The translations under genes were made by a program, and so were the position numbers. Positions 594 through 63,771 of a stretch of 64,000 nt of DNA are shown here, piece by piece. The first letter of the stretch is position 1; the number at the start of each line of letters is the position of its first letter. The notes beneath the pieces were generated by a model, which was given only the letters and a program-made list of their open reading frames with translations, was not told the DNA's origin and did not search any database. The stretch spans positions 248,001 to 312,000 of the forward strand of contig JAFCMP010000539.1 in NCBI GenBank assembly GCA_017506865.1, given 5' to 3'. Source of the stretch: Tribonema minus (Eukaryota; Sar; Xanthophyceae; Tribonematales; Tribonemataceae).

Positions 594-3083
594 GCACGTT
601 CGCCTTCTTCATGGCCTTCGCGTGCTGGTTCAGCTTCGCGCCGCTGCTAGCGGTGGGCACCATCAAAGCCAACCTCTCGCTCACCGCCGACGACGTCTCC
701 AACGCCAACATCGCCGCGCTGTGCTCCACCGTCATCGGGCGCGCCATCCTCGGCCCCCTGTGCGACGCCTTCGGCGCGCGCATCGTCATGGCGTGCCTGC
801 TCTTCTTCGGCGCCATCCCCACCTTCTTCCAGGGCCTCGTGCAGGACGCGCAGGGGCTCGCCGTGTGCCGCTTCTTTGTGGGTTTCCTCGGCGCCACGTT
901 CGTCGCCAACCAGGCGTGGTCCTCCGCCATGTTCGGCAAGAGCATCGTGGGACGCGCCAACGCAACGTCTGCGGGCTGGGGTAACCTGGGCGGCGGCGTC
1001 ACGCACCTCATCATGGTCGGCCTGTACGAGGGCTACAAGCAGGTGACTAACTAACTAGGGTTGCACGAAAACGTGCAAGTAGTGGGCCACACGAGTATGG
1101 CGTAGTTGGGGCGTATTTGGCAACCTGGAGTGGTCAGCCTGTACGAGGGCTACAAGCAGGAGACCAAGTAGGGTTGCGCGAACACGCATGTAGTTGGCCA
1201 CACAAGTTGCGGCGTATTTGGGGCGTATTTGGCAACCAGGAGCATGTTTTGAGCTAATCTCGACATGATGCCACATGCTGCGCAAAGGTCGTATCTGTGG
1301 AGCATGTGGTGATGAGGCTGCTCGACGCCGACCATACAGTCCACCACAAAAGGGGCGCGAACTCAGAATGCAACTTCAACATGCGCTGTTTTTTGCAACC
1401 CTACAGGTGACGGACCCCGAGACGGCGTGGCGAGTGAGCTTCATCGTGCCCGCCGCCGTCGTGATGATGTGCGCGTTCGCAGTCTTCCTGCTTGCTGATG
1501 ACTGCCCCAAGGGCAACTACAATGAGCTCATCAAGCACAACTCCATGGTGCGCAAGTCCAGTAAGAAGTCGGCCGAGTCGGCGCTCAAGTCGCCCAACTC
1601 GTGGATCCTGGCGCTGCACTACGGCTGCTCCTTCGGTGAGTGCGCGCGGTGGAATATTTACGATGCGTTAGCGTTTGCGCCGTATTTTCGCACACTGATG
1701 CTTGCCAGGCTAAGGTTCTTGATTAGGCCTTGCATGTAACAGAAGGTACTCTTTGAAAACATATACGCTGCAGGCCACCTTCTACGTTCACACGCAACTC
1801 TTGGGTTGTGACGCGTCACCGAGGCGCCTTCCTCGTTGACTGCTTGTAGCGGGACGCTGGGCGCCCGTTGTATTTGCGCTGCAGTTGCAATATGCTGGCA
1901 AACTTTGTTCGTCGCTGCTTCCATGGATTGACAACTCCAAAAGTGCCTCACAGCGGTAGGCCACTTACTGATGTGTTCAAAACTTTAGTGCGGTGACACT
2001 CCACCCTCACAGTTGAACTTGATGCGCCTTCTGAAGTGGAGAGGCGCATGTAGTGGCCTCCCTATATTCAATGCAACCCATAGCCATACGTGCTGCACTG
2101 ATGCCCCTGGGCCGGCGTCGCAGCTAATCGCCTTTTCAGCTGTTCCTCAAACATCATCGCAGGTGCACGGACTGACACTGATCGACACCAAGCCCTTGTA
2201 GACAGATGCAATGCAGACATGACGGGCTTGTCGTTCGCTTGGCGCAAACGCATGCGCAAGCCTCAATACCGGGCCACCGCACCATTTTGCGCGATCATTT
2301 GTCAGGCAGCATGTGCTCTCACTAAGACCAGCAAGTGTAGTATTCAGCTCTCGTTTTGTCCTGCGAATGCAGACGTATGCATAGTGTTCGAAGTGAACGC
2401 ACTAAGTCTCACTCCTCCCCTTTGCCCCCCCCCCCCCCCCCCCCCTTCTCCCCCCAGGCATCGAGCTCATCGTCTTCAACGTGTCCACCTCGTACTTTGT
2501 CAACAGCTTCGGCATGAAGCTCTCCAAGGCGGCGCTCGTCTCCGCGGCGTTCGGCTTCTTCAACATCTTCTCGCGCCCCGGCGGCGGCTTCCTCTCCGAC
2601 ACCATGAACCGCCGCTTCGGCGCCGGCAGCAGGGGCATGCGCGGGCGCATCCTCACGCAGCTCATCCTCATGCTGTGCTCGGGCTCCATGCTGCTGGCCT
2701 TTTCCTTCCAGGAGGACTCCATGGGGGGCTCCATCGCGTGCCTCATCGCCTTCGCCATCGCCATGCAGGCGGTCAACGGCTCGACGTACTCGATCGTCCC
2801 CTACGTCGCGCCGGAGGCGACCGGCGCGGTGAGCGGCATGACCGGCGCGGGCGGCAACGTCGGCGCCGTCTGCTGGTCGCTCATCTTCCGCTTCGGCCCC
2901 GCGCCCAACCTCTGCTTCCGCATCCTCTCGTACATCGTGCTCGGCGCCGCGTGCACCGTGCCGCTCATCAACATCCGCGGCTATGACACGCTCTTCACCA
3001 AGGCCAAGGACGAGATGGCGGCGATCGACGTAGATGGCGTGGATGTCAACCGCACCGCGCCCGTGGCCGCCGAGCAGATCTGA
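594..3083 (+). CDS. NRT2: High-affinity nitrate/nitrite transporter (NNP/NRT2 family, MFS), 3' exons
   Basis: This major facilitator of the nitrate-nitrite porter family imports nitrate across the plasma membrane with protons. I read three exons: 594-1042, 1407-1635 and 2458-3083. All are flanked by GT-AG, the junctions are phase 0 and phase 1, and the last ends in TGA at 3081-3083. Exon 1 starts with the WFSFAPLL helix and carries the family signature AGWGNLGGGVTH near its end. Exon 3 opens with FNVSTSYFV and carries the second glycine signature GMTGAGGNVGAV. About 434 residues are present, against roughly 430-550 in the family, so only the N-terminus is missing. The hydrophilic stretch after DDCPKGNY in exon 2 is the central loop. 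The C-terminal tail after the last helix is short. Family assignment is secure; substrate preference is inferred. Confidence 0.93.
1014..1245 (+). repeat. Tandem copy of the exon 1/intron 1 boundary of the nitrate transporter
   Basis: The end of exon 1 and the start of intron 1 (from 1014) recur from 1131, a 117-base period. Both units carry CTGTACGAGGGCTACAAGCAG and then a TAGGGTTG-type stretch ending TATTTGGCAACC. The real donor reads CAG|GTGACT; the copy reads CAG|GAGACC and so has lost its GT. Confidence 0.85.
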
Positions 3084-3981
3084 GCGCTGCTGCTGAGCGC
3101 TGCTGCTTATTGTCCCGCGCACGCTACCGGCGACGCCTGATTACTTTCCCTGGCGGCGGCGTTGCTACTGCTGTCGGCGCTGCGCGTGCCTGCCTGCGCC
3201 GCAGCGCGCGGCGCAGTGTGGTGCGTCTCTCCTGTGATACATACCCTGCCCAAACTTCAAAACTTCAAGGAGTCCCCTCCGCCCCCGGTTGTGTAATTTT
3301 GTCCAGATCCCGCCGCCGCTTCCCGCCCTCGTTCCAGCGGTTGCCAAGGCAATTGTACTACCACGATAGTGCCCCCCCCTCTCCCCCTGACGCGACGAGA
3401 CAGTGCGACCACGTGTCCTACTAGTGTCCCCTCGTCTGCCAGAGACGCAATGCGGCGCCGGCTGCGTCATGCACGCGTGCAGCAGTGCTCTAGCTAGGTT
3501 TGTACGCTAGCGCACGCGCACAGCATTACGCCCGCCCGTTTTGAGCCCCGTGGACGGCGGGCCAGCTCAGGGTATGCATGTATGTCTTTGTGTTGTGCAG
3601 CCAGCATTTTGACTCCTCTGCTGGTCTGCTGCAGAGTTTCCCTGGCAGCACACTTGCCAAGATACCTACATACCCCCCCCAGATAATTTACATGTTTGTC
3701 CTTCCACTGCCCTGCCGCTGGCTGGCTCATTGTTTATTGTTGCGCTAGCTGTGGTGTCATTCAGTTTTATGCTGTTTGCACTAGTTCAAATTGCTCGTCA
3801 GTCTGCATCATGCTGACCAACATAACACTCTCAAATTTGCGCTTCATGGATCCCTTGCAGACATGTACCCCTGTGGCCGAGTGTCCACCTCGTTGCTTCA
3901 CAAATGTGCGCTGTGCTGGGTGTTCTGCACTTGCTGTAGAGGCGTGTGCATACATGGCACTGGTTGATGAGGTTAGCCTAA

Positions 3982-4128
3982 GCACTATTTGCCGTCAGCA
4001 AGACACTTCATGAAAAGCAAGTCGGTCGCTTAGTCTGCACTGCATGTGCACACTGCGCACTATTTACCGTCAGCAAGACACTAAATGAAAAGCAAGTCGG
4101 TCGCTTAGTCTGCATTGCATGTGCACAC
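3982..4128. repeat. 75-base tandem duplication
   Basis: The segment starting GCACTATTT at 3982 recurs at 4057, with a few substitutions over about 72 bases. The shared core includes GAAAAGCAAGTCGGTCGC. No gene is evident in it. Confidence 0.85.
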
Positions 4129-5166
4129 AAGGGAACTGTGTATAGGGAAGTACTCAGCAATGACAGCTTTGAAGCTGTCAACGAAGGTCGGCTGCATGCC
4201 ATGTTCTTGAAGTCAAGTTCGCCACTTCCACACATGTACGCAACATGTCGAGAGCAAGCACTTGTTGTGATGCCTGTCATCTCCAAAACGCCACGCGTCA
4301 AGCATGTAATGTGCTGCAGCTTGGATGAGGTGACAAGCAGCACCAAAACTTGAATACATCTACAACAACAACAATGGCGCAGCACAAACTTTGACACATG
4401 GAGTTTCCAGCATGATGACTGCTTCCTTGCGCACGCAAGCTTCCATGCATGTACGTGGACTATGTTTTGCAGTGCAGAGCATTGTGTGCAATGCAGACAA
4501 ACAGCCAGCACAGCATGCTATTGCACCACATTCAATTATGCCCACCGGCGCTTCAGTGTACACACTGATGACACCAGTGTTTTGAGCGGTGAGCTCAAAA
4601 TGGTCTATGTGGTGCAAGCTGTTGTCAAGAACACCATGATGTGTGCCACCACCCTTGAAATGAGGGCATCGTACGATAGTAATGCTGCTTGCATGATCAA
4701 CTCCAGCTTGCATGACATGGCATCATTAAGCTTCTCTCCATCAAGAATTGAATGACAGCAGTGCTCAGGACCTGTGGCGAACATGCTGGTTGTTGCAATG
4801 TTGCTAAACACATACAATCGAGTGCAAGCAGCAAGCTCACATGCCACGCACATGTACTAATCCTCAACCTGAACTGTGGCAATTGAAACTGTGTGGAGTA
4901 AACACAAGCGGCTTGCATGCCATGTCCAACATCATTGCGGCACCTGATCTGTAACAGGAACACAGAGGGCGCAGTGCACTGACAGGGTATGAGCCCTATC
5001 AACACACTGAATACTGGCCTCCAACTCATCACACACACAAGAGGCAGAAAGCAAAATGCACAAAACCAATCATCCCCAGAAAACATGCATTTCATTGATA
5101 GCATCGCCAGGCACCACGTAACATGCCAGCACACATGTGCCAGCACGTTCACCGCGGGCACCGACA

Positions 5167-5231
5167 ATGACAGCAGGCATCACTGCCGCTACCCGGTACA
5201 ATGACAGCAGTCATCACTGCCGCTACCCGGT
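5167..5231. repeat. 34-base tandem duplication
   Basis: ATGACAGCAG(G/T)CATCACT and the following GCCGCTACCCGGT occur twice in a row, at 5167 and 5201, nearly identical. Confidence 0.8.
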
Positions 5232-5564
5232 CCGAGCTGCTCATATATACATGCAAGCGTGTGCCACCTGAAAGAGGCTGACGCAATACCATCCCCCCCC
5301 CCCCCCCCCCGTTCTCCCAGTTCTGATTGTTATCCCAGCAAATGCTGAACTGCAGAAGGCCTGAAGTTGCCTACGCGCTTTCCTACATGATGTTTCGGAA
5401 AGCAACAACGGCAGTGCCAGAGGTGCAGCTAACAAACAGCAGCAGCACTACTTGACAGTTTTCGTGCTGCCACAGCTGCTGTTGTACTGCACCCCCTCAC
5501 CCTTCAGAAATCCTCCAACTGCAGAAACAGGTTTACCCTCCCTGTGTGTAGGCACTATGCGCGC

Positions 5565-7489: not shown

Positions 7490-10400
7490 CTACACCCACC
7501 CCTTCCGCACCTTTGCAAGTGCGTACAAAAACGACTTGCGCATGCCCGCCGACACCACCCCCTTAAGCCCCTGCCACCGACTAGACGCGCCGACTATCTG
7601 CGCGAGCCGCTTTGCCAGCGCCTGATTGGGCGACGCGGACCTCGCGGCGGCCAATAGGATCGCCCGATGGCGCCCCTGCAGTACCGCGGACGGGAGGCGT
7701 TCGACCAGCGATGCGCGCGCTGCGGGCGACGCGTCTTGCGCAAAGGTCGACAGGTCGTGCGCGCGGGACGTCACCTGCGGCACTGCCTGCGAAGTTCAAG
7801 GGCAGTTGCAGGGCGCGGCGCATGAATGTGAGCGTTGGTGGGCACGTACTTCAGCTTTCTCCGATTGGAGGGCGCAAAAAGCCTTTTATTGTTTTGGATT
7901 GCAAGTGTGGTTCAAAGCGATCACGCACTTTGGTACAGCTGGTAGTGGTAGCCTTGAAAGGGACGTGACCCAGCCTGCAACAACTTCAACAACCACGTGA
8001 CACTGCTCATCCTGCGCATGATGTTCTCCGAGCGCGTCATATCCCACCGGTTGCTGCTTGCATTTTGAGCAACGGACAAAGTGATGACTTTGTGAAAATG
8101 GGCTTGGATGCGAGCTGCGGCTGTCGGAGCCAGAGGGTAAACCTTACCAGCAAAAGACCCCGCCTGCCCTACACCTCTGGTCCCTCCCCTGTGCGCAGGG
8201 ACACGAGTCTTCTGCTATTACTAATTCTAACCCTAACCCTAACCCTATTTACTACTGTTGTGGCTAATCGTCTGTATGAGCATGCATGGTATAAATTATC
8301 ATGGTATGAGCTCTTTTCCTTGTGAAGTACTCCAAAAAAGAACTCGTGACTCACAGCGGTGACCACCGCAGCATGAGTGAGTCAAAGGCGTAGGTAGGGT
8401 TCGCCCGTGCAGCTTTATCACTTGCCTGCAGCGCTTCGCGATACAGCGTCTTGAAGGCGTCAGTGCTCAACAAGGACCCAACTTCAACATGTGCTGAGCT
8501 CTGCTCTGTCAGTACGAACTTCTTTCCTGAAGTTTCTCAGACTCGTGACTCACAGCGGTAACCACCGCAGCGCGAGACAAAGGCATAGTTGAGGTTCACC
8601 CGCGCAGCGTTTTCACTTGCCTGCAGCGCATCCCGGTACAACGTCGTGAGGGCGTCAGTGCTCACCAAGGACGCAACTTCAACACCACAGCGCGCGACAA
8701 AGGCATAGTTGAGGTTCACCCGCGCAGTGTTTTACTTGCCTGCAGCGCATCCCGGTAGAGCGTCTTGAAGGCGTCGAAGCTGCCGCTGACAATGTTGCTG
8801 ACCTTGTGGGGGTTCTCCGCAATGCCCATCCTGATGTCGCCTGCGCACGCTCAAACCATGCACTTGGCAGCGTCAGAAACAAGAAACAAGCTCGTACATA
8901 GGGCAAGAAACCTCAACGACTTAGTGTCAGAGTAAGGTAAGTAGGTCACATAAGAAAAAAATGCCCCCCCTGACCACTATGTACCTACAAGCACGTGCAA
9001 CAAAAGAGACTGACAGGTAACATAATTGTAGCGCAGCAGGCCTGTTCCCCCCACACCTGCAGAGGTGCAGCTGGGGGTAGGGTAGGTCAGGGTTGTCCTT
9101 GATGCTTGTAGTGCCGCTGAATGAAAGCCCAGCTGATACATGCCGAAAACACCCAGACAAGCACGGGCATGACACAATGGAAATGAGCAGAAGCCACCAG
9201 TATAAGCACTTGAAAATGCTTTTGATAATCATAAAGTGCTCGCTTTGGGGCGTGAAAAAGCCCAGGTGGTTGATGTCAACTTTGCTACCGGAATCTAAAT
9301 GTACCTTACGAAGAAAGGTCGCAACGCGCATTGACCATGACTTCAAAAAAATTTCTCGAACTACAGTAGTGCCATTCACTTCAATAAAAGAGGTGAGAGC
9401 GTAGCTCACCGCCGCGCCAGCAATGGACAGCCAAAGACCCAAGCAGACACAACGCTTTTGGCTAGTTAATGCAAGTGTTGCTGGAAGTGCACTTAGGCGG
9501 CCATGATGGTACAGTATACTTGCATGCGCAGGCGCATCATTTGTCAGCATGACCCAAACTCAACATGTGCTGTGCTGTGCTGTTCGCTGTCAAAAGGCGT
9601 ATCGAGAGCTCTTCAAGTAGGAAATGACGATAGCAGGGGTGCTGTTAAGGAATTGAGGCCGTTGCGCCGAGGTGCTTGGGGCAGCACGTAGTTGTGAATG
9701 CAATACAGCCTCGATGCACACACCCTGAGTGCAGCACAGGGGTTTCGACGTCAAGTTCGTCACAACTCTTTCAACACCTCACAACTTCATGTGCAACCTG
9801 GGCAGCATGGCCCGCCTGACTTCAAGAACAAGTCCTAAGCAGTTAGCGGCAGCAGACTTTTCCCAGATTTCCTGGAGTTGAGGAATGGGTTTTACATCTT
9901 GAATTTTGGACGGCATGCATCACACCTAAACTGTTGTGGACAGACGTCCATCTGACCGGCCCGGTATATACTGTATGTATGCAGCGTTCGCGTCACACAT
10001 GCTCGAAAATTGTCGTCGCAGAGAGGTTCGCATACAACAGCCACATAAAGAAACGGTGATGGCACCACGCATACCACAATCCGTATAGACCGACCCGCAA
10101 AGGCCAGGTGTATAGTTGAAGTTCAAGTGTAGACCGACTCATGTACACTTGAACTTCAAGCCCGCCGTGCAGAAGCATTCAGGGCGATCTCACCGTGCGC
10201 GGCCGCTGCACCACACACATCTCAACTCTTCAAGTTGTACTTCTAGCACTCGGCCACTACCTGCTTACGACAGCCAGGCGATCTTCAAGAACAGCTGCTG
10301 GTCGGTGAAGCATTCGAGATGACCAAACGCGCGCAGCTTTCATGCACACACACATCTCAACTCTTGTAATTCAAATTTCAAGACAGACCTGCGTACGACA

Positions 10401-13400
10401 ACCCGGCAATCTTCAAGAACAGCTCCTGAGCGCCAAGGCATTTGAAATACCCAAGGCGAGCGCTCTGGCTGCATTGCACACACACCTCAACTCTTGCACT
10501 TCAAGTACGCACACAGACTTGAAATTGTCAGACACTACCTGCGTACGACAGCCCGGCGATCTTCAAAAGCAGCCCCTAAGCGCCAAAGAATTTTACATAC
10601 CCAAAGCGAGCGCTCTGGTTGCATCGCACACACACCTCAATTCTTGTACTTCAAGTACGAAGACAGATTTCAAGTCAGACACTACCTGCGTACGACAGCC
10701 CCGCGATCTTCGAGAACAGCTCCTGAGCGCTGAAGCATTCGAGATAACCGGACGGCGCGCAGCATTTGATGCACGCTCATACCTCTACTCTCGCACTTTA
10801 AGTACTAAGACAGACCTGCGTATGACAGCCTGGCGATCTTCAAGAACCACTGAAGCATTGAAGATAACCAACGCGAGCGCGGTGGTTGCATCGCACACAT
10901 CTCAACGCTTCAAAGTACTTCAATTTCTCAGACACTACCTGCGTACGACAGCCCGGCGATCTTCAAGAACAGCTCCTGAGCGCTGAAGCGCTCCGGCAGC
11001 AGCAGCAGCGCCGCCACCACAGCGCTCGCCAAATTCCCCTCCACCGCGCGCGCCACCCCCCCTCCCCCCCCCCCCGCTGCTGAGCACTGCGGCGGCCGCA
11101 GCGTCTGCACGGGCTTGTGCATGCGCCCCGCCGCGTAGAGCCAGCGCCACTGCGTGAGGTCAGTGACGAGGTCTCCGGTGGATATGACGCCGTACTTCAT
11201 GAGGCGCCCCGCGTGTGGGCCTATGGGTATGGGCACCATGGTGTTGTACAGCATCTGGGGGGCGGGGGGGGGAGGGGGGGGGGGGGTAGTGTTAGGGTGG
11301 GTTAGGGTCAGCGTGAGGTCTCCGATGGAGATTACGCCGTACTTCATGAGGCGCCCTGTATGAGGGCCTATGGGTATGGGCACCATGGTGGTGTACAGCA
11401 TCTACGGGTGGGGGGTGGGGTTATGGTCAAAGGTGAGAGTGATGCCATGCACATCCCAGCCCTGACCCAATCCTATCCCCAGCCCTGATCCTAAACCTAT
11501 TCCTAGCAGCAACCGCTTCTCATGCCTTTGCCACTTCCTCTTGTCCTGGCACCCACAAGGCACGGCACATGAACGAGCAACAAGGTGTTACTTCAACTTG
11601 AAGTGCCAACAGCGAAAGGAAGAGCGTGAGCGTGAGCGTCACTCACCTAAGCCCCGTAGTTCTCCTGTAGCCTGGCGGTGCCCGGCGCGCCCATGACACA
11701 GCATAGATGCAAGTTGTGTTACTTCAACTTGAAGTGGCAAGAAAATCACTCACCCGCGCTCCACAGTTTTCCTGCAGCTCGGCGGCGCCAGACATGCTCA
11801 TGGCGCGGTATAGGAAAAGCAGGTGTTACTTCAAGTTGAAGTGGAAGGAGCGTCACTCACCCGCGCCCCGTAGTTCTCCTGCAGCCTGGCGGTGCCCGGC
11901 GCCCCCATGGCTCGACAGATTGACGAGTAGTGGTGAGGGTTGCTGTCTAGATTGGCAGCGTGCCACGCGCGCGCGTCATCGACGCACACCACCAGATCCA
12001 GCATAGGCATGGCCGACGGCCGCGCCGTTTGTTCGTAGCCCTGCACGACAGCGGCAGCAGCGGGGCGCGGTGCATTGCAGTGTTGGTATTGAATGTAGCG
12101 AGGCATTGCAGTACATACTGACATTGAATGTAGCGCTGCACGGCGGCAGCGGCAGGGGAGCGAGGCGCGTTGCGGTGTTGGTGGTGAGTGTAGCGCTGCC
12201 TGGCAGTGTTGCAGTGTTGGCGTTGAGTGTAGCGCAGCATCGTGGTGCGGTGCGGTGTTGGCAGTGAATGCAGCGCTGCATGGCAGTAGTGGCAGCGGAG
12301 CGCGGAGCGTTGCAGTGCTGGCGTTGAATGTAGCGCTGCATGGCAGCATCAGCAGCAGAGCGCGATGCGTGGCATTGTTGGTATTGAATGTAGCGCTGCA
12401 TGGCAGCATCGCGGTGCAGTGCGCTGCATGCACGTCAGTGCGCATGGTCATGTCAGGACCATCGCCCGTTTGTGCATACAGTATACTTCGAAGTATAGTT
12501 TCAAGCTGCACGCCTTTGCGACCAAACTCCTGAAGTCATTTACCATGGTTGCCTTAATAGATCAGCTTCAAGCCAGATCCAGGTGGCGGGCAGACAGGGC
12601 GGATGCGCGCGCCATAGCACACACCCTAGCGTGGTCGCTTGCAACGCGTTTTTCTTATTTGTGGTCTCTTGCCGCACATGAGGATTCAATAAAGCCTGCC
12701 GCAGGCCCCGCTTCCCGGGGATCAGCCTGTAACAGTCTGTAACTGCCAGCAGCGGGCATGATAAAGGCAAACCTAACTGCCTGTGCTTGCAGGCCTGCCA
12801 TAGAAGGCGGCAATAAATGACTGGCTATCGGCAACCATGTCTCAATAGCAACTGTCACTAACGAGTTGCTTGCTGGGCGCCCAGAGTGCAACAGGTGACG
12901 CACCAAGTGTGTCGTCGGCTGCATGCGTTGAAAAGGTTTGCCAGAGGCGTTGTGATAACAGATGAAGCCAACTGCGCGTACTGTTTAGCTGCTTTTGAGG
13001 TTTGCGCTGTAGTCTAATGATAAGCACCATCATACTGTTGTGCCACAAACTGTGAGGTTGGCAGCGCCGCGTGCACCGGCAGTTACACCGTAACCGACGC
13101 CGACCTCAAGGCCGGGTTGAAGTTGAACGTTTCAGTCACACGCCAGAGGTCCATGCGCCAACCGCGGCACAGCAAGTAACTGTTCCCTGTGCAAACACGA
13201 GGCGCGCATTGCGCGACTTCGACAACAACGGCATGAGCACATGGGCACTTCGCTCGAAGCGGTCTACTGGCTTGAAGGTTGTCGGCCCTCGAAGTTTGAT
13301 TGAAGATGGCTGGCTCATTGGTAATCGAGCCGGACCAAGGAGCATCGAATGTGGCATGGCTGTCATGATTGACGTCTGAGGGTTTTGACAAAGAAACCTG

Positions 13401-14199: not shown

Positions 14200-17100
14200 A
14201 TGCGATCTTCGGCGGACGTCAACGATGCAGCGGTGAAGGGCACGGCGGACGACGCCATTACGGGCAAGCTGAGCGCTGTCACTCTCGGATACTTCGATGA
14301 CCCCTTCCTGGTGCACTTCAGCAAGCCAGCGCCCGGCCAGCCAAGCCGCAGGCCTCCCATAATCAACAGGGGCAACTTTGCCAGGATGGCTTGTGTTGAC
14401 AAGGTGGTCAGGGCGTTCTGCGGCTGCGAGGCACTCAGTGGGGACAAGCAGGTGAGCTTGGGGTGTGTATGACACACCGAACTTTGCAATTAACATAATT
14501 TGACCTGATTATCAACTTCACTGCGCTGGAACCATTTTCGAAGTCGGCCATTCTGAGAAGTGTGATGTTACCACTGGTGTAATCAGCAGTTGCAGTATTT
14601 CGAGTGGTGCGGTGTATGTATGCTCTGTGCTCATGCGCGCTACGGAGTCAAACCTCATGATGGCGCACTCATTTCCGCTTCTTGCAACACATCATGAAAG
14701 TGTCCCCAAGCGCACTCAAGAAACTGCAGCGTCACGCTCACACGTTGTGGAGCACCATCGTTGCTGGTGTGTGCAGTCCGCATCATGCGCATCCACCGCT
14801 GTTGCTTCAAACTTTCACCTACTGGCATGATGTCCATCTCAGGGTTTGCGCCCTGGCGCACTCGAGACACAGCTGCTGCCCCCCTCACACTTGCCCCCCC
14901 CCCTTGCGCCATCATCACCCTCCACGACCATTCCACCTCTCGAAACGACGCCGCAGGTGGTGTCCCTCGGCGCAGGCAACGACACCACGTTCTTCCGCCT
15001 AGCGCGCGACAGCGCCGCGCCCCGAGGCGGCTACTTCGAGATCGACTTCCCATCCACCATGGAGCGGAAGCTGGCGACGCTCCTGCGATCGCCGCCGCTG
15101 CGCCAGCTGGCACCACTCACTCAGACTCAGACTCTCAGTCAATCCGAGTTGCCCCCCACCGGCGCCCCCCCGCGCAAACCTCAACATGTGACGCTCTCCG
15201 ACGGCGCGTATCGCCTCATAAGCGGGGACCTGCGAGACGCCAACGGGGTGGTGAGGGCGCTGCTCGCGGCCGGTCTCGATCCGCAGGCGCCGACGCTTCT
15301 GGTGGCAGAGTGCGTGCTGGTGTACATGGAGCCGGCGGAGTCCGCGGCGCTGCTGGCGGAACTCTCCGGGAACTTTCCGTGCAGGTGTGTATTTTTGGGG
15401 GGCTTTCGGACGTGTTGAGGAGTTTGGACCTGATACGTGCAGCTTCTTCAATTTTGTGATGTGACCCTAGTAGGGTAGGTTCACGTTTCAAAAGCAGATG
15501 AGTGCGCGGCGCTGCTGGCGGAACTCTCCGGGAACTTTCCGTGCAGGTGTGTGTTCTGGGGAGATTGGACCGCAGCGCTTGACGTACTTGCACCTTGTTT
15601 TTTTTGTGGGCTTCACAGAGTAACAAGTATCGCGAAGTATTTGCTTTGTGATATGACCATAGAAGGCCAGATGTGCGTTTCAAGAGAAGATGTGGCATTG
15701 TCGGCTCTTGAATGAGCTGCCGGCACCACTCTCATTCCAGTGTCGTGCAAATGTCGCTTTGTCAGGATGCGCTGCATCCTTCTCACACGCGAATCACCCC
15801 CGACGCCAAGTTGAGCAGTGATGCATGATTTGGGTCAGAGTAGGTTTTAGTGTACATGAGGTTCAGGGCAAGATTTACGGTAAGGGTTAGGGTCAGGGTG
15901 CTCTGATGACTCATTGGCGACGCAAGGCTCGCCCGGCGCCGACAATCTGCTGATTACGCAAAGTGCATCTCGCGTACGAGATGCTCACCCTGATGACAAG
16001 CTTGGCGCATTGGGTGCTCCAACGCAACCTGCACTGGTACAGCTCGTCAACCCTAACCTTAACCACACTTGACTGATGTAGACCCAGGTCGCGCAGCATC
16101 CTCGTCTTGCGTTGATGTCGCTAGGCTTGACGGGCCTAACCGTAAGCACTGGCGAGTCACCGGTCAACCAGCGTCCTCCTTGCATGCGAGATGGTCAGTC
16201 CCGGCGACAGTTTCGGAGCGGCGATGCGCGACAACATCTGAACTAGAACTGTACTTCAATACATGCTTCAAAGTGGATACAAGAACTAGTATCACTAGGA
16301 GACAGGCGCTACATACTAGCATTGATCTTCTTCTTTTTGACTTCTGGCCCTGCGCACCATGCAGCATTCTCCTCGCATATGAGATGGTCAACCCCGGCGA
16401 CAAATTCGGAGCGGTGATGCGCGACAACATCCGATGTTGGATTGCCGCATATAGACAGGCCTTGCTAGCATTCATCTTTTGACTGTAGGATGTTGCTCTG
16501 ATGGCCGTGCAGCATCCTCCTGGCGTACGAGATGGTCAACCCCGGCGACAAATTCGGAGCGGTGATGCGCAACAACATCCGCGCGCGCGGCTGCCGCCTC
16601 CCCGGCTTCGACCCCTTCCCCTCCCTCGGCGCGCACGTGGCACGGCTCAACGCGGCAGGATACAGCAGCGCTCAGGCGTTGGACATGCTGACGGCGTACG
16701 AGAGGGTGTTGGACGCGGCGCAGGTGGCGCGCGCGGCGCGCATAGAGCCGCTGGATGAAGTGGAGGAGTGGACGCTGATCATGGTGAGCGCTGCCACGTG
16801 GCATGTAACAGACAGTTACAAACAGTCACATGATGAACATTATTACGTATGTGTGGCGCGAATAGAGCCGCTGGATGAATTGGAGGAATGGACGCTGAGC
16901 GTTGCCACATGGCACGTCCAACAGACAGTTCCAAACAGTTACACTAATGAGGTGGCACGTGTCGAACATACAGTTACATAGCAGTTTCGCTGAGGTGGCG
17001 CGCGCAACGCGTATAGAGCCGCTGGACGAACTGGAGGAGTGGACGCTGATCATGGCAAGTAGATGCACTTAGAGTGCAGATGCATGGCACGCCTAGCCTT

Positions 17101-18675
17101 ACTCCTAACCCTAGTCACGGGCAGATGCGGATATTCCTGGGTCGCGTCAGCAGAGTTTGGTGTATGCGATTGCTGTCCTCGCACACACACAAAATGCGCG
17201 TTACGGCGCGCATTGAGCCGCTGGATGAATTGGAGGAGTGGACGCTGATCATGTTGAGCGCTGACGCGTGGCGCACTGGAGGATCAGTTGCAGAACAGGT
17301 ACAAAACACGGGTACAAGTTGAAACGTTCCGTGCCTGAGCGCTGCTCACGCACATACACACAATGCGATCACGCGCGCGGCGCGTATAGAGCCGCTGGAC
17401 CAACTGAAGGAGTGGACGCTGATCATGGTGAGCGGTGCCGCGTGGCGCGCGTCCAACAGACAGTTACAAACAGTTACACCAATCAGGTGTTACGCATGTG
17501 TCGCGCGCATCGAGCTGCTGGACCAACTGAAGGGTGCAGGCTGATCATGGTGAGCGCTGACGCGTGGCGCGTAGACAGTCAGTTACGAACAGTTACACAG
17601 TAAGCATTACGTATGTGTGGCGCGCATTGAGCCGCTTGATGAAGAGGACAAGTGGACGCTGATCATAGTGAGCGCTGACGCGTGTGCTGCAACTGCAAGG
17701 CATGAGTGTCACTGGCGCGTGTGAGTGGGCGAGGGGCGCCGAAACAGGCAGTTACGAATAGATGCGGGAGGATTGCTGATCATGGTTAGTATGTATGGAG
17801 CGCTGCCTGCGGCTCAGCTAGTGAAAACGGTGAGGGGTAGGTCTAGGATGAGGGTGAGGGGTTGAGCTTAAGCTTGCTGTGCAAGGTGTCAAACATACTG
17901 ACGGACAGGTCGGGAAGTCCCTGTAGCGTGTGTCACCAGGCTCTCCAGCGCCTGTCATCGCCCTTGAGAGGCAGGCGCCTGATCTGGTAATAAAATCAGG
18001 ACCTGCACACGCACGAACGCGCCTAACCCTAACCCTAACGCTGCTGTATGCGCTGGAAGGTCGAACGCTGGTCATGGTGAGCGCTGATGCGTAGCGCGCT
18101 GGATGAACAGTTACATGGCGGTTACAAAACAGTGGCGAGCAAGGGCAAGAAGTTCCATGTGCCGGAGGGCTGTTCTTCTCGCACATGCACACTAATGCGG
18201 TCGCGCATTGCACATGCGGCGCGCAGAGGCGCTGGATGAGCTCGAGGACCGGACGCTCATCGTGGTGAATGTGGGCGCGTGTTTTGATGTGATGTGATTG
18301 ATGCCAACCAACAATCACATGAGTTGCCGGTCGGTATCTCTCGCACGTGTCAGCTCGCCAGAAAGGCCAGTATACCCTGTATTAATTGACTGTCTAGCTT
18401 GAGGTACCAGTCGATCTCCTGCTTGGCAATCAACGCGCACAGACCAGGGCGCTACGAGTCATTCCTGACCCTGCACCGTCAGCAGTTGCTCAACTGAACG
18501 CCACACTATACCTATATCAACGCGAGCGCACTGACTGACGGCCAATACGTACCTACCCCCATGTGCGTCCGCTTTTCTACAGAGCCACTACTGCCTGGCG
18601 CTGGCGGCGCGCGGCGAGCAGGCGGAGCAGTTCCTGCAGAGCTTGAAGCTGCCGGCGCCGCTCGTGAGAACTTGA
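14200..18675 (+). CDS. LCMT1: Leucine carboxyl methyltransferase 1 (PP2A C-subunit methyltransferase), four exons
   Basis: LCMT1 methylates the C-terminal leucine carboxylate of the PP2A catalytic subunit with S-adenosylmethionine, controlling holoenzyme assembly. Exons are 14200-14451, 14957-15384, 16513-16783 and 18583-18675, with phase 0, 2 and 0 junctions and total 1044 nt, giving 347 residues (human protein 334). Exon 1 encodes AVTLGYFDDPFLVHF and PPIINRGNFAR, the family N-terminus. Exon 2 opens with VVSLGAGNDTTFFRL, the SAM-binding glycine loop, then YFEIDFPS, and ends with LLVAECVLVYM. The 2/3 junction codes CSILLAYEMVNPGDKFG. Exon 3 continues with RNNIRARGC and ends EEWTLIM, and exon 4 starts SHYCLALAA. 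The start ATG lies just before the conserved region; an upstream exon is not excluded. Introns 2 and 3 are packed with copies of the neighbouring exon ends. Confidence 0.93.
15495..15570 (+). repeat. Donor-side echo of LCMT1 exon 2
   Basis: The last ~45 bases of exon 2 and its donor (ACTTTCCGTGCAG|GTGTGT) recur about 155 bases downstream with almost no change, followed by matching TTTTGGGG-like intron sequence. The copy keeps a usable GT. Confidence 0.88.
15960..16512 (+). repeat. Acceptor-side echoes of LCMT1 exon 3 in intron 2
   Basis: The start of exon 3 (ATCCTCCTGGCGTACGAGAT, then GTCAACCCCGGCGAC) has earlier copies at about 16365-16440 and 16180-16245, and a weaker one near 15965-16000 (CTCGCGTACGAGATG). 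The copies extend to GGAGCGGTGATGCGC. The last unit, from 16513, is the real exon, since only it continues into conserved LCMT1 sequence. Confidence 0.85.
16784..18275 (+). repeat. Array of about nine echoes of the LCMT1 exon 3 donor region filling intron 3
   Basis: Copies of the exon 3 end (ARIEPLDEVEEWTLIM|GTGAGCGC) occur near 16857, 17008, 17210, 17380, 17508 and 17623. More decayed ones lie near 17775, 18048 and 18220. Spacing is 110-190 bases. Each is followed by the same intron motif, with CAGACAGTTACAAACAGTTACA clearly visible in several. Some keep GATCATGGTGAGCG (17380 and 17508 units); others lost it. The array makes up most of an intron of 1.8 kb. Confidence 0.92.
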
Positions 18676-47900: not shown

Positions 47901-50900
47901 CATTTAAGCTTGATTTAGTTCAGTGGGTGGCACAAATGCACAACAAACATAGCTATAGGGCACAATTGAAATTGTCCACCAGGTGTACATAGTACAGGGT
48001 GAGTACAGAGAGCAGTACGTACCTGAAGGGGGTGCGACGGTGTACCATCCGGTAACTGTCACAGAGACAAACAGGCAGGGCACATTTGAAGTGTTGGCAA
48101 CATGATGGTAGTGTAAATTAGATAAAGCTGAGCCACGGTGTGTCAGCACCACGATGCAGTATCTCTCAGAGTATGCATATATAAAAGTAAAATACGCCCC
48201 GCACTGCGCTTTCCTGGATGACCTCAACGTGCTGCAAGCTGCCTACTTCGACGATGCAGCGGCCGCTGGGGTGGCAGAGGTGATCCGCCGGCTGGCGGCA
48301 GGGGGCCTACACGTTCGACCAGACAAGTCGCTGGCCATCGCCATGCGCGGCACAGTGTTTGATGAAGCGGCCAGAGCACGCCTGCGCGCCCTTGACATAC
48401 CGTTTGTGGACACCACCATGCCAGAATCCAGTCAGGGCTTTACGTCGGTCGGGGTACCGGTAGGGCACCCAGCCTATGTGCACGCTGCCATGAGCAAGCA
48501 TCTTGTCGACGCAGGGACATGGCGATTGTCGTGGCAGCTAGCTGGAATGGCGCGGCATCACCTACAGGCAGCACAGTTCATTCTACGCAGGTCACTGACG
48601 AAGCGCATGGGCTTCTTAGCTCGGGTCGTTGACACGGCTTTGAGTGAGACATGGTTGCACGCGTTTGACGGGTTCTGTGCATGGACGCTCGAACGCATGC
48701 TGCATCTGCACGGCTGCTCTACCGCGGCAGTCATGAAGTCACACCTGCTGGCCGCCTGCACTGCTGGTGACAATGAGGAAGCCAGCAGTGGCAGCGTGCT
48801 GGTATTGCCGCGCTTGGGCCCGCCAGAACTCACGGACATCGCAGTGCCACTGCGGGCGTCACGGTTGCCGGAGCGACGAGGCGGTCTGGGCATGCCGCTT
48901 TTGGGGCTACTGGCACCAGCCGCATACACGGCCCAGGCATGCACAACACTGAGGCCGGCAATAATTCATGCCACTGTGGCAGCAGGGGCCCTGAGGCTCG
49001 GCACTGACGAACACGGCGCAGTCACCTGGTTCGCGCAGCACTCATGCGCAATACGCGAGGACCAGGGACTGCCGCCAATCATCGAGGCCGTGCGACGCTC
49101 TACGCGAGCGCTGACAGCTGATGGCGGCGAAAAATCACGCACAGCTGTGGCCGAGCAGCTCCCAGCATCGTTGCTACGGTGGGCAGCAGATACGACGGCC
49201 GCAGCGTCGACGCTCCCCACTGCGGTGCAAGCGATCTACGCCGCAACTGCCGTCACGGAGACAGTGACCACTGAGCCAGCCCCACACACCCACGGCATTG
49301 TGCCTGGCGCCGAGGCGGCCGCTGCGGCGGCGACCGTACCTGGCCCTCAAGCCGCTGCCGCGGCTGCCCCTTCCACGTCCGCTAAAACACAAACTAGTGC
49401 GGAAGAAAGCAGCTGCAGCGGCGGGCAGGAGGACGACGACTGGGAGGCCTATGCTGACGAGATCTGCAGAAAGGTAGTGCCCCGCCGCCGGCGCGGTCAC
49501 TTCACGCACGGACTACAAGCCGGCCTTTCAAATGTTCTTCGACGTCAATACGAGGATTGCCTGGTGGAGGACCTAGAGGCTGCCTCGGCTGGTGCCGTGG
49601 GCAAGCCGACGCAGGCTGCACCTATTGGTGACTCGCGCGACACCAGCCGCCGCCGCCAACAGGCTAGCGCACGGGTCCTGGCGCAGCTGCGCAGCCAGCG
49701 TGCGTCCGGGGCAATGGCGTGGATGAGCGTGCCACCCACTGCCAATGACCGCCCGGGTGCGGCGCCCATGTCCAGTATGGCAGCAGCCACGATGATTTTG
49801 ATTGCGATCTTCATAGACGGGTGGGGCATACAGGGCGAGGTGTGCCCATGGCGGTGCAGTGATGTGAGCCCCACCTCCACGCATGCGATCAGCTGCCCCA
49901 GCCAGCACATACGGGGGCACAACGCGACACACACTGCCCAAAAGCGGTGCCTGCAGCGCATCTTGAGACAGCACCATGTCTCTATTGTCCGCAATGAGGA
50001 CGCTAGCGTCTTCAAGGTACCGGGGTATCGGGCGGACACAGTCATTGACCCAGGGTGTTTGCACTTTAGCAGTGCATACCGTAACAAGGGAATAGTGCTA
50101 GACACAAGTGTGCGCGCGCCCACAGCGAGCTCGTACCTGACAGGCAAAACAAATGCCTCGAACACGGACGGCTATGCTGCTGGGGTGGGGGAGGACGCGA
50201 AGGTCAAGCACCACACCGGCACCTTGACGTCATCTTGGGCTTTTGTGCCATTCGTGCAGGAGTCGTACGGACGGCTGGGCAAGCAGACAAGCCTTTTTGT
50301 TAAGGAGTTGGCAATGCACTCAGCACTGTGCTCAGGGGGGGGGAAGGCAGATGTGTTACGCAAGGCCGGGTTAGCTAAGCGTCAGATCCTCATTGAGCTG
50401 AGCATATCGCTGGCGCGGGAGTTGGCGGAGCGCGTCATGGCGTACACACGTGGAGCGCGAATGCTGGGCTGTGTTGCGGCGCCGGTATCCAAGCTCCTAG
50501 GGCACAGCGCAGACTAGGCTGCTGCGTTGACGCAAGCTTTTCGATTGCATAGGCAACCCGGCCTCCCTTGGGCCTTTATAAATACAAGTCCATACGTAAA
50601 ATACGTCACGTTAATGTGCAGGTGGCGTATACCGTGCATGCGCCGGGCGCTGATTGACACCCTTGATACGATGGCCAGAGCTCATGTTGAACAGCATGCG
50701 CTTCTGTTGAGTGCTGTCAGGTGCTCAGCGCAGTCCACGCACACTTGAGTCTACACTGCAGCAACGCGGTCGCTCAAATGATCTCACACTTGAATTGACT
50801 TTGCACGAACATGGCAGGAATATGGCAAAATGCATTTTTTATCAGGCAGGGCATCCTGTCGAGCTTTTGTAAGTGATGTGTAGCAACACCACCTCTGTTG

Positions 50901-53900
50901 CCTCTCAAGTGCTGCCCGGAAATAAATGCGCATGTGCAGCTGCCAAAGCGGTCAACAACTTCAATTCTGTGCTGCACACACACGCACCTGCTGTGCCGAA
51001 GAGGCCCTCCTTGCTCTGAGCGACACAAGTCACACTCTGAGTCGCCGAGAATATGGGTAGCGAGTCTGTGTACTGCTCCGCGGTGGCGCCAAGTTTGTCA
51101 CCCTGAGAAACATCAATTTCGAACATGGTCGTGTCAGCCTGAAATCTTACAATACGATCCGCATATGTAATCGCATTCCTACTTTGGCTCTTTCAGCGTG
51201 AGACTCATGATGAGATACGATTTGCATTTCATGGTCGCGCAAGTTGCTTTGAGGTTTTGCAAAGTAGGCAGGCTTGAGTCAGATGCGGGTCAGATCTTTC
51301 TGACTCCTCAACGTATAAGTTACGTTCAGTGCCATTGGCGGCAATGATCCTGTGCGGGCACCTGCTGCAGAACTAGCTTCTACATCAGGCCTATTTGCAC
51401 AAGGCTACAGCTTTTGAGTTGAATCAACAAGCACAGCAGACAATCACGCAAATGCTCCGGCTTCGACCCCTCCCCCCCCATACCAGCGCAACGGCAATTA
51501 ATATTTCTTTGCTATATTTATACATGAGCCTTGTGTGCTACTCTGCTGCCGTACCCTTAGCATGGTAAAAACTTCTTCATCTGCCAGGCCGTCCTCCGGT
51601 GATAGGCGGCCATTTTCGGGCGCAGCAAACGATGTAGTTGCTCGCTGACGCAGTGCGAGGCTAACCCTAACATTGACCCTGACCATAAACCTGACCCTAT
51701 ACCTAACCCTACCCCTAACCCTACGTGGAACACATACGACTGGCGCTGCCAGTGTACAAGCCGTACTTACCCATTTCCACTGCTGCACGGCAACATGCAC
51801 CACCAACAAAAGTGTCATGTTCATTATCAGCTCACCATCAGCACCGCCGTTCAATGACTACATGCACAAGCACGGGCATCATATTCACTACCAGCTTTAC
51901 ATCAGCACATGTTCATTGGCAGCTCACCGTCAGCACCGCCGTTCCATCGGTCGTGCAGACAATGCGCTATTGAACACCGAGCAGGGGAATCGTTTGCAAG
52001 CCGTACTTACCCATTTTCACTGATGCACGGCAACATGCACCACTAATAAAATTGTCATATTCATTGTCGGCTTACCGTCAGCACCGCCGTTCCATCGGTC
52101 GTGCAGTACACGCTTGTACCGTCCACCACTGCGACGGACACGGTGGCTGCGGCAACGGTCGTTTTCGCGTCGGTTCCACCCACGGGCGTCACTGAGGTGC
52201 GCAAGTTCAAACATGAAGATGGCGCTTTTGAGTTCTTGATCCAGTGCGGCATGCGGAACAGAACAATACATAGGGTTAGGATTAGGGTTAGGGTCCACTG
52301 CTGCAATGGACACGGTGGCTGCGGCAACTGTCGTTTTTGCAGCGGCGCTGCCCGCGGGTGTCACTGAGGTGCGGAAGTTCAAACATGAAGTTGGTGCTTT
52401 TGAGTTCTTGCTCCAGTGTGGCAGGCATGTGAAACAGACAACACTGGGGTCAGGCTTAGCGTTGCAATTAGGGTTAGGCTAGCCCTAAGGAACAGACGTC
52501 ACGCAACTCAACACCACTGTCCATCCTCCTCATTGATGCGCACGTTTTGCAGCAGTTTCTGATTGGCCTGCGCCTGGCACTGTGGCCTGCGCTTACAGCT
52601 ATGTGATGTTCGCGTTCAGTCAGTGCCTGATAGGGGTGTACAAGAGTTCAGAAGCAAGCCGTACCCTCACTGCTGTAGGCTGTGGTTGTGGAAATATAAT
52701 GTATCTGCCCCACCTTACAGCAGCAAGCCTTTATCTGAAGTTGCCGAGATCGGCTGAACGTGTAGCACTGCAAAGCCATGCGTCACAAAAGTCTACTCGT
52801 GGCTGAATGCAGGGCATGATGGTCATGCACTTGTCACACAATGAGACTGATCAGTCAAGTAGGGTGCTGGGCTGCGGGCACAAGTTGAAGTTTGAGCAAT
52901 TGCGGTATGCAGTGGTACGGTTGGTGCCCTCAGCTTCCTCCGTGCATTGCAAGGGTGTTGTGGCACCCAGTGTCCTCACTGCACCTTTGTCTCTTAGGGT
53001 TAGGGTTAGGGTTAGGGTTAGGGTTAGGGTTAGTGTTGTCCCACTGCCCCTAAAAACATGCCAAACCCAGCATTGCCATCATCTGAGAGTATAGGCACGG
53101 TGTGCTCCACTGTGCAACCTAGCAGGATATTCAAGGAATAGGGGACGTTAGGGTTAGGGTCAGTGGTACAAGTCAGGTCACTCACCTACAGGCGCCGCTG
53201 GCGGCGGGGGCTTCTTGAACCACTTGGACACTGCAATCGTACCAAAAAACAAAAAAAGAACAGAACGTTCGCAGCGGTCAGCATCAGTGCTCAGCAAGGT
53301 GGAGCTGCTCATGCACCAATCATCAGACAATGTCAGGCGCGGGGGCTGCAACAACTGCGCAATGTGTAACATGCAACCTGAGCCGAATTCTGCCCCCAAG
53401 CACACTTACGAAGACCGTCCAGCTGGAATCGTGTACCGGCTTCAGTGTTACTGGCCTTTGCTTAGTATTGCCGACGACGTTTACATCAGTACCCACTGGA
53501 CGCTTACAAGTATCAGTGCTGGCTTTTTGCCGTTACGCTCACAAGTGTCAGTGCTGAATAGAAGCATCTCATTTGAAACTTCAAGTGCCACTACAACCAG
53601 CTACTCAGCTGTGCGCGGGCGCACTGTCACAACAAGCTCTGCATGTGCAGGGCAAGCGCCCTGCAGTGGGAAGAAAGAAGATAGACATGCACTGATCTCT
53701 GTGGCGCATGCAGAATGCTCACGCACCAATGGACGCGACCACCTAGGAATTGCGATTGCTGAGTGCTGAACAGATGTGGCCGGCCGTCTTCGAGGTGAAC
53801 TCGAAGTAGTCAACAGGGCTGGTGGGCCTCTTACCCTAACGTTGTAACCCTGGCACTATCCACTAACACTGACCCTAATGCTATCCCTAACCCTACCCCA

Positions 53901-56900
53901 AAACCGCTGCCGCCACAACTGGCAGAGTTTATGCCACTGCGCATCAAAGCCAAGGACAGCCGCAATTGAAGTAGTAGCAGAGGACTGAACATTTATTTGA
54001 AGTTCACCTGCGGCGCTGAACGCTCCCGCGTCGCTCTTGGCAGCGCAGTTGAGCACTGTGGAGGCGGCGATGGGAATGGGGGCGGTGTACTCCACGGCAG
54101 TGGCCGCCAGCACGTTCCCCTGTTGCGGCAAACACGCACGGAAAATTCAATATTGTTGTCAGAGCAGTAGTCGTGACGGAAGATGTCACTCTCACGAAGC
54201 CTGTTGCAGTTCGCACGTGCAGCAGCTGATGCGGCCCGCACATCAGATTGTTGCCCTGTTGCAGCAATAACGTACGGAAGGCGCTCTTATTACGTGGCCG
54301 GGAATACATCTTGAAGTAGTGACTTGAGGTACTAAGTGGTTGAGCGCGAGCATGCAGCATGTCAAAGTGCAAGCACAAAACCTGAACCTAGCTGATATTG
54401 CACTACCTAGCGACGAGAGGCCCACTGTGAGCACTGCTGTAACGCTGCGGCACAGTAGACATTGATGCCGGCCACCATAATCATGCTGAATGTAATCGCT
54501 AATCATAACCCTAACCCTAACTAATACTGCACCGCTGAGCAATGTGACTCACCGTGAGAACTGCTGTAGTGCTGGTGGTGCAGTAGACATTGATGCCAGC
54601 CACCACAGTCATGCTGAGCGTAGCTGCCATTCGTAACCCTAACCCTAATTACTGCTGAAATGCTGAGCAGTGAGAGACTCACCGTGAGCACTGCCGTAGC
54701 GCCAATGGTGCAGTAGACGTTGGTGTCAGCAACCACGTTCATGCTGTATGTAGTTGCTAATCACAGCGTTACAGCTAACTAATGCAGCAAATGAGAGACT
54801 CACCGTGAGCACTGCTGTAGCGCCGGTGGTGCAGTAGACCTTGGTGCCAGCCACCACATTCACAGTAACGGCGAGCGTGCCTGCAGCTGTTGCCTCGGTC
54901 GCGCCACCAAGGGGCGTCACTGCGCAGCGCATGAGCGCAGAATTCATTTCATGAGTGCTGCGCGCCTCTAGTGCATCAGATTGACTCACTGTCGGCCTTC
55001 AGCATGCAGGCATGCCATGTACTGAAAGTTTCTGAGATTAACGACTGCACTTGTAATCATGTTAAATGGGCTTGAAGTGGAAAATAAAGCGGCTACGGGA
55101 CTCACTGCGCGACACTGATGTTGCCGCGGAGGAGAAAAGGCTGTTGTAAACAGATGCTGCTTCACATCAATAGCCACCACAGTCAGCCTGTTGCTAAGCT
55201 GAGCATCAGCACGAAGATTGCTGCCCTGCACGCGCGAGGCAGCGCATTGCGATGGCCTCTGGTTATGGGAACAACCTGAACCGTGACGTCTGACGACCGG
55301 GGCGCGGCAGCAGCTGGGATCTGCCCCCAAAGCAAGAAACAGGGTTGGGCTAACCTAAACCTAAGTCAAACTCCGAACACAGAGTGCACCTGGACTGGCG
55401 CCGCAAGCTGCTTTTGAGATGAGAGTAGATCATCCACGGATCAAATCGTGTTTGCCAGGGCTGCAGGGAAGGACCACTTACGTGCAGGCAGCGCTGGCGG
55501 CACCGGCGGCATGTACCACATGGTCACTGCAACGCCACAAGAAAGCAAACAACAGTGCAGAGACATGGCAAGCAACCTCATGAGTAAGCTGACACGGTTC
55601 GTTGGCATAAAGCGTCGTACATCGTCGAAGAGTCTGCAGCCCCGTGCAAGCCGGATCATCAGCAGACGGTGCGATATCATATATGTCGTGAGATTGTCAC
55701 ATCCTGCAACGAACTATGTGCCACCACACCATGACCTTGCCTGACCCTAACCCTGACCCCAATTCTAATACTAACTTCAATGTCCATCTGCTTGCTCATC
55801 ACACAAACTATCAGTGAGAGCCCATCATTCAAGCGCACCGCAGCGTGCATGAAGCACCATTGTGAAGGCGCAGACGTGGTGCAGATCAGCGGCGGAGCAC
55901 TGCTGCTGTGCTGCACTGCAGCGCGCAGCGCCACGGCGTTTGGCCTCAGCACCAGCATCCGTGACCGCAACGAGGTCAGTGCAGCCTTAGGGTTAGGGTT
56001 AAGGTTAGGGTTAGGGTCAGAGTCAACTCTTTGGGTACCTGCGCTTGCAGTTACTTAGTGGTGAGCGGATCTGTGAGCGGAGAGGGACTGCGTGCAGTAT
56101 GCAAAACGCCAGCTTTGAGGATTTGCTCTTGAGTTTGCCTACTTAGAATTACAGGGATTAACTGTAGGTGAATTTGCTGAGAACTGCGCAGCGCCGGCCG
56201 TGAGGCTTTGCTCTTGGGTTTACCCACCTTTGCTTTTGAAATTGAAAACTTCAACAGTTCAAAAACATGGAGCGTTCACTGGCAGGCAACAAGTCCGCTC
56301 ATGTAGACCGACCGGCCCGCCACAGCGGTCAAACCCTAATCCTAACCTTAACCCTAACCCTAAGCAGCAACACCGCCCGCTCACACGCAAAGATGTTGTA
56401 CTGTACTCGACTAGCTCTTTTTTGTTGCTCATCAATGCGTGCGTGTGGAGTTGGATATGCGCAGTGAGAACTGCTGCAGGTCACGATGGCAGCCCAACAC
56501 TTCTGTCAAGCGTACGTTGCACGCCATGCAGTTCACAGGTCCGCAATAACGTTGCTGGCTATTCAGGTCAAGGCTAGGGCTAGTTTTACACTGACGGCTG
56601 TGCCTCCCCCCTCCCCCCACCCCCCCCGCCCCATCAAAACACCTAGCTTGCTGAATAACAGGACTAACACCCTACTTCGTACATAGCAGCAGTACCCAGG
56701 TTCTGATCTGCAGATCTATTTGATGAACCACAAAGCCAGCATTTGAACCAGTATGATCTAGCCCTGACCTTGTGAGCCGTAGTTGCCAGCCAGGCCCTTG
56801 GCGACGCAGTTGACCAGCATCAGGTTTGGGACTTGGATGGCGGTGGTCACCTTGAGGGTGAGCGCTGTGGCGCTGAGCGTTGGCGCAGGACCCTGTGAAA

Positions 56901-63771: not shown

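Follow-up and report, generated by a model that had tools for sequence, protein, structure and literature searches.

Repeated copies of exon ends and splice sites in Tribonema minus introns, a probable trace of frequent local duplication

In Tribonema minus, a yellow-green alga belonging to the stramenopiles, exon ends are copied repeatedly together with their splice sites and a stretch of intron, mostly at 80–200 bp, into the neighbouring intron, and older copies tend to sit farther from the exon. These copies, here called echoes, look like neutral by-products of frequent local duplication that lengthens introns, not the work of a machinery aimed at splice sites, and we give this reading a probability of about two in three. 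The trace is ordinary in kind (duplication plus purifying selection) and, as far as the one eukaryote genome scanned can show, probably unusual in extent.

The window, i.e. the whole 64,000-nucleotide stretch of DNA in which the echoes were noticed and to which positions refer unless stated otherwise, sits on contig C536 of an assembly of 158.18 Mb in 554 contigs. Joining its three nitrate transporter exons gives a protein 100% identical to Tribonema minus protein P0001. The exons of TAM41 and LCMT1 were placed with profile HMMs, and the boundaries of the third TAM41 intron are weak (score -2.0).

593..1042, plus strand: nitrate transporter exon whose donor is echoed (frame, splice sites, 100% match to P0001)
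1407..1635, plus strand: nitrate transporter exon (frame, splice sites, 100% protein match to P0001)
2458..3083, plus strand: last nitrate transporter exon (frame, splice sites, 100% protein match to P0001)
11858..12028, minus strand: TAM41 exon (HMM 28-83)
10934..11257, minus strand: TAM41 exon (HMM 82-175)
8722..8844, minus strand: TAM41 exon (HMM 173-214)
7502..7774, minus strand: TAM41 exon (HMM 219-322)
14951..15384, plus strand: LCMT1 exon (HMM match 14951-15361; donor 15384/15385 read by eye)

Self-BLAST of the window returned 66 local direct pairs covering 10.9% of its length, against none in a Markov-3 shuffle of the same sequence. The copies attached to these genes are as follows.

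1014..1130, plus strand: source unit of the transporter echo, comprising exon end, donor and ~90 nt of intron (self-BLAST, 83% identity, period 117)
1131..1242, plus strand: transporter donor-side echo, with GA in place of the donor GT (self-BLAST and alignment)
11634..11807, minus strand: TAM41 donor-side echoes, periods 107 and 214
11306..11419, minus strand: TAM41 acceptor-side echo, 86%
10194..10847, minus strand: TAM41 donor-side multi-copy echo array; a DNA search matches its own locus only
8383..8656, minus strand: TAM41 donor-side echoes, 91% and 82%
15500..15561, plus strand: LCMT1 donor-side echo, a copy of the end of the HMM-matched exon
16722..17684, plus strand: multi-copy local array downstream of the verified LCMT1 exon; a DNA search matches its own locus only

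The transporter echo spans the donor at 1042/1043, with 28 of 29 aligned bases identical in the exon part and 72 matches, 9 mismatches and 9 gaps in the intron part. The corresponding figures for the LCMT1 echo at 15500-15561 are 46 matches and 1 mismatch in the exon part, and 20 matches, 4 mismatches and 6 gaps in the intron part. In TAM41, donors are spanned in 3 of 3 cases and acceptors in 1 of 3. A preliminary description had placed echoes in four named genes and at every intron-containing gene of the window; alignments bear out the transporter, TAM41 and LCMT1, but echoes do not occur at every junction, with 1 of 4 echoed in the two complete transporter introns and no copy pair found by self-BLAST in the intron at 1636-2457. 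The fourth gene, a supposed large repeat gene, was approached by profile-scanning ten ORFs, which yielded two sub-threshold matches to CHB_HEX_C_1 (E 0.08 and 0.3) and no verified gene model. On the minus strand between 21000 and 63800 runs a series of ORFs with repeated motifs of the "YCTTDGS" kind, which resembles CHB_HEX_C_1 below threshold and is perhaps one very long repeat gene. Two ORFs, at 32080-35337 and 48112-50517, have by eye a long near-identical stretch in common; the former matches the reverse transcriptase profile RVT_1 (E 2.5e-07), so that both are probably recent retroelement copies.

The same pattern is found at loci chosen by homology. Exon coordinates were taken from genome-wide Pfam searches for Ras and kinesin, 20 kinesin loci of 10 kb and 20 Ras segments were extracted, and donors and acceptors were set by GT-AG, frame and profile continuity. 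Exon pairs were skipped if no acceptable splice solution existed (2 kinesin, 4 Ras) or if exons were missing between hits. This gave 56 refined introns (34 kinesin, 22 Ras), of which 10 with a score below 5, one of them also longer than 3 kb, were dropped to leave 46. Counting a junction as spanned when a local copy has at least 8 nt on each side of it, copies span 23 of 92 junctions (10 donors, 13 acceptors), in 12 of 31 loci; before the score filter the count was 29/110, made up of 21/66 in 33 kinesin introns and 8/44 in 22 Ras introns. Local copies account for 15.9% of 312.5 kb and for 18.2% of intron interiors (mean of 42 introns), and about one fifth of the verified intron DNA can be recognised as local copies. 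The proposal of a recurrent process that lengthens introns is thereby upheld, local DNA with junctions included having been copied into introns at many loci. Regional differences are strong: coverage per kinesin locus (n = 20) ranges from 0 to 43%, with 0-1% at three of these 10-kb loci (L001, L012 and L018), although exon hits in L012 lie 2.7 kb apart.

Periods agree with the earlier estimate of about 90-190 bases, 195 of 308 primary pairs falling within 80-199 bp; their remainders modulo 3 (103/95/97) reveal no frame preference, and tandem arrays reach up to 7 copies. In all 48 spanning alignments the outermost copy is the real junction, as protein continuity requires. Among primary pairs of the 46 introns, 35 are wholly intronic (some of them between two echoes), 24 span a junction and 9 are exon-only, which contradicts the idea that few echoes lie wholly within introns. 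The companion claim, that few lie wholly within exons, holds: not one copy pair is contained in verified exon over 18.6 kb.

Codon positions indicate which copy is the source. At junctions with at least two echoes, differences in which the echoes agree against the real exon are distributed over the three codon positions as 0/0/10, compared with 39/30/41 for echo-specific differences and 80/58/71 for differences between echoes. After copying, then, the real exon has changed at third positions only (10 polarised changes), and echo-specific changes are spread evenly; together this identifies exons as the source and makes the echoes look neutral. Their splice sites behave likewise: the donor GT is kept in 18 of 22 copies and the acceptor AG in 22 of 27, a change of ~9% per site, which equals or falls slightly below the divergence on the exon side (9.7-11.4%) and amounts to half of that in intronic sequence (18.5-19.6%). 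Decay of echo GT/AG is thus about neutral, half of the intronic divergence representing one neutral branch. In the best pair per spanned junction (n = 23), divergence is 8.5% in the exon part versus 14.4% in the intron part, as expected when a constrained plus a neutral partner are compared with two neutral ones.

That echoes serve as alternative or decoy splice sites maintained by selection is very improbable on this evidence, although several observations could be read in its favour. Most echo GT and AG dinucleotides are unaltered; where a donor has changed (4 copies), it has become GC in 3. Exon-derived parts contain far fewer gap positions (12 per 1221 aligned sites) than intron-derived parts (187 per 1851), and even between echoes they diverge less (18.2% versus 24.0%, 44 comparisons); both contrasts speak against fully neutral echoes, unless they stem from detection bias or from low complexity of intron sequence. 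We set the conservation of exon blocks between echoes aside, as a judgement and not a test, because echoes were detected through their exon side. Against maintained function stand the neutral rate of GT/AG decay, the lack of codon-position bias in echo-specific changes and the lack of a frame preference in periods; selection on the coding sequence of echoes was considered and is disfavoured by the polarised codon positions. The suggestion that echoes seed splice sites that are put to use thus finds no support in the sequence evidence.

Divergence also increases with distance from the exon, as had been proposed. In 44 two-copy comparisons from 14 junctions, those sharing a junction not being independent, the farther copy was more diverged in 34, less diverged in 9 and tied in 1.

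Whether duplication is directed to junctions is less clear-cut. With exons masked, coverage on the donor side is 0.11 in the first 20 nt and 0.13-0.23 further in, and on the acceptor side 0.12-0.39, with no peak at junctions on either side in the 46-intron set; a uniform process would itself leave the ends less covered, since partners are available on one side only. Uniform duplication of 65-200 bp was simulated with exon constraint, small indels and rate differences between genes, with or without deletions; the substitution, indel and deletion rates were of our choosing and interior coverage was matched by hand. Mean numbers of spanned junctions were 10.9 and 11.8, versus 23 observed, and none of 60 runs reached 23. 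Maxima of 22 and 21 came from runs in which interior coverage was left free to depart from the observed value, and in the 47 runs with coverage near it the maxima were 16 and 19. Earlier trials comprised 12 runs under three settings, one of which reproduced the interior coverage, and 32 runs, with at most 15 spanned junctions. Spanned junctions thus probably amount to about twice the simulated uniform expectation, a moderate and non-exclusive excess, which is perhaps inflated by purely intronic pairs decaying faster than modelled. The ratio of junction coverage to length-weighted interior coverage is 1.11, with a bootstrap interval (0.75-1.51) that includes the null maximum of 1.04. The supposed focus on junctions therefore survives as a probable, approximately twofold excess; copies are not confined there, no peak appears once exons are masked, and intronic pairs abound.

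Twofold excess and age-ordered arrays are what would be expected if breaks or template switches occurred preferentially at exon-intron boundaries, for example at the edges of exon nucleosomes, at co-transcriptional structures or at transposon ends coinciding with splice sites. Given the flat exon-masked profile, the wide interval of the ratio and the possibly faster decay of intronic pairs, we regard such a junction-directed process as unlikely. The same low standing applies to its bolder form, in which junctions are recurrent duplication origins and introns lengthen from their ends like age-layered conveyor belts. If this were true, each round would copy exon end, splice site and adjacent intron inward, displacing older copies, and junctions would be marked by exon chromatin or by transposon ends turned splice sites.

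The relation of copies to coding DNA was approached with a codon score that marks as coding-like 86% of exon sequence and 4% of intron sequence when applied to its own training set. After masking of coding-like DNA, the fraction of non-coding DNA covered by copies is 14.5-15.4% up to 200 nt from it, 13.5% at 200-400 nt, ~6% beyond 800 nt and 3% in non-coding blocks of at least 3 kb (n = 6); a looser mask gives a weaker trend (0.10 within 400 nt, 0.06 at 400-1600 nt). The drop beyond 800 nt indicates that copies arise, or persist, unevenly across the genome. Equal abundance of such duplications in intergenic DNA had been named as the observation that would speak against a junction focus, and in this rough version of the check copies are rarer far from coding-like DNA, but the distant blocks are probably rich in young transposons and hence no clean intergenic control.

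The copies are not simple tandem repeats. Aligned length has a median of 0.48 of the period, and in the 25 pairs of at least 84% identity the class medians are 0.33-0.73, where simulated head-to-tail duplication predicts ~1.0. Simple tandem duplication thus fails to explain copies that match over about half their period: either less than a full period is copied, as happens in template-switch insertions, or the spacers diverge more rapidly. Similarity over the whole period, i.e. true head-to-tail duplication, is seen in two young non-coding cases, at window positions 3982-4128 (94%) and at L045:868-1005 (98.6%). The latter is a fresh, wholly intronic duplication of 67 bp in one transporter paralogue, absent from the other, with 71 bases aligned at a period of 67, an overlap of ~4 nt. 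The distribution of pair identities has its maximum at 76-79%, and only 16 of 264 pairs reach 92% or more, which is not what a process of constant rate gives; duplication was perhaps more frequent at earlier times.

Classic minisatellite slippage or satellite expansion could account for arrays of up to 7 copies and for these two clean repeats. It appears a poor fit to periods centred on 80-200 bp, to copies matching over half their period and to the many arrays that follow exon ends; in place of many homogeneous head-to-tail units there are few copies, with divergence graded by distance, and we consider this origin highly unlikely. Less probable still, indeed close to negligible, is an assembly artefact. 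All observations do come from the assembled sequence of a single assembly, but most copies differ by 5-30% and have an age order and codon-position polarity that lie beyond mis-assembly.

A comparison of haplotypes was dropped: the contig pairs C144/C223 and C179/C90 looked allelic, but their divergence is mosaic, up to 33%, and they consist of dense, apparently intron-poor coding sequence. The four 10-kb stretches concerned (L041-L044) contain 0, 1, 1 and 6 local-copy pairs and are perhaps endogenous viral or otherwise foreign regions. A link between echoes and telomere-type repeats was likewise rejected (Spearman 0.15, p 0.35 across loci), such repeats showing a weak proximity to copy edges (21% versus 14% within 10 nt). 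As an observation in its own right, interstitial telomere-type repeats form 112 arrays (11 nt or longer) in 312.5 kb; verified introns contain 24 of these and verified exons none, and doubled permuted hexamers have 0-2 occurrences versus 379. They are present at several loci, including positions 42308-42374, 44613-44639, 51661-51723, 52994-53037, 55987-56017 and 56332-56363 of the window.

The echoed transporter intron itself appears to have a different origin, as suggested by the following elements.

1043..1406, plus strand: introner-like intron, absent from the paralogues on contigs C46 and C519
1169..1403, plus strand: dispersed 225-bp element with inverted ends TAGGGTTGC/GCAACCCTA, present as a full-length copy at 78% identity
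1056-1131, plus strand: partial copy of the 225-bp element, within the duplicated unit
1040..1047, plus strand: 5′ flanking repeat CAGGTGAC, a putative target-site duplication, followed by 8 further bases before the inverted end
1404..1411, plus strand: 3′ flanking repeat CAGGTGAC, whose CAG is the acceptor

The element family is dispersed in the genome, with 120 matches to a 31-mer (at most 3 mismatches) and none to a reversed-pattern control. Three of eight further copies start directly after CAGG. Three relatives were read on both sides. The one on contig C116 has both ends, flanks CTCGCAGG/GTCGCAGG (7 of 8) and 3 extra bases; that on C490 has a degenerate 3′ end, and for that on C526 the fetched stretch shows no recognisable 3′ end. 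The C116 copy (L056, C116:88600-89300) forms a predicted intron in a second gene, which we take to be a glutathione transferase from the way it reads. The reading frame is restored across the window intron and, as we read it, across the C116 one as well. Close transporter paralogues on C46 and C519 are without the intron, and a distant one on C34 has an intron about five codons upstream. At the intron site the window protein is closer to sequences of other species than the C46 and C519 paralogues are, and the intron may represent either a gain here or a loss in the ancestor of these paralogues. With a dispersed family, inverted ends, flanking repeats and a predicted paralogue-specific intron, the intron at 1043-1406 looks by its structure like a transposon-made introner. 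Having its ends at or near splice sites, it would suit a junction-directed process, but the element is in none of the 46 test introns, and introners therefore do not explain the echoes. In 355.5 kb searched, one partial copy (L017) was found beyond the window copy and its duplicated part.

The reading we prefer remains local duplication that affects non-coding DNA near genes at large and most likely arises when breaks are repaired with fill-in or template switching. A duplication internal to an exon would be removed by selection, whereas one spanning a junction would leave the exon intact and place the copy in the intron, and would therefore survive. The next duplication would fall between the exon and the older copy, hence the age order, and exon-anchored pairs would stay recognisable for longer because one partner is constrained. 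Some moderate additional bias towards junctions is possible, but is not required. The conservative alternative of the preliminary description, duplication with purifying selection on exons, thus explains most of the data, though not the junction excess or the short matching blocks.

Intron lengthening is usually attributed to transposon insertion. The arrays described here serve as a dated record from which intron growth can be measured and its direction and neutrality read from codon positions. Decaying exon copies may be mistaken for exons in gene prediction, and intact decoy sites about a hundred bases away offer a natural test of how splicing ignores them. The intron at 1043-1406 would be a further example, from a stramenopile, of an intron made by a transposon and missing from paralogues.

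Introners have been described in Micromonas and Aureococcus. No paper in the collection searched mentions both Tribonema and introners, and Tribonema is not named in the main text of the 2022 survey PMC9860276. With the introners of that survey the transporter intron has in common inverted ends, 8-bp flanking repeats and dispersed relatives; they would account for the origin of this one intron and not for the echoes. As for the echoes, no description of repeated junction copies inside introns was evident from title or opening of the abstract among the literature matches listed. Work on rice and on paired nicks is said to have found small tandem duplications from the filling-in of DNA breaks. 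Such duplications have been ascribed to fill-in by Pol alpha-primase/CST (PMC8355091). They are local and attributed to break repair, and L045:868-1005 with its overlap of ~4 nt is similar; the copies here differ in matching over about half their period and in recurring at the same exon ends. Intron gain by tandem duplication of AGGT (Rogers 1989, Hellsten 2011, as described in PMC4974935) likewise combines local duplication with splice sites. Its hallmark pair of donor and acceptor copies in the same intron was seen in none of the 46 introns at the BLAST threshold applied; five of them, above 1.5 kb, are longer than the distance over which pairs were sought. Direct repeats near splice sites, of 4-30 bp and read as insertion scars flanking introns (PMC11782384), also lie at intron borders; those described here are longer blocks of exon end plus intron and lie inside introns. 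In the potato RdRp gene, a tandem duplication across an intron-exon boundary occurs together with an 83-bp intronic duplication (PMC4974935). The crossing of a junction by a tandem duplication is common to both; the potato event created a new intron, whereas in Tribonema minus the copies lie within existing introns, at many loci, and repeatedly.
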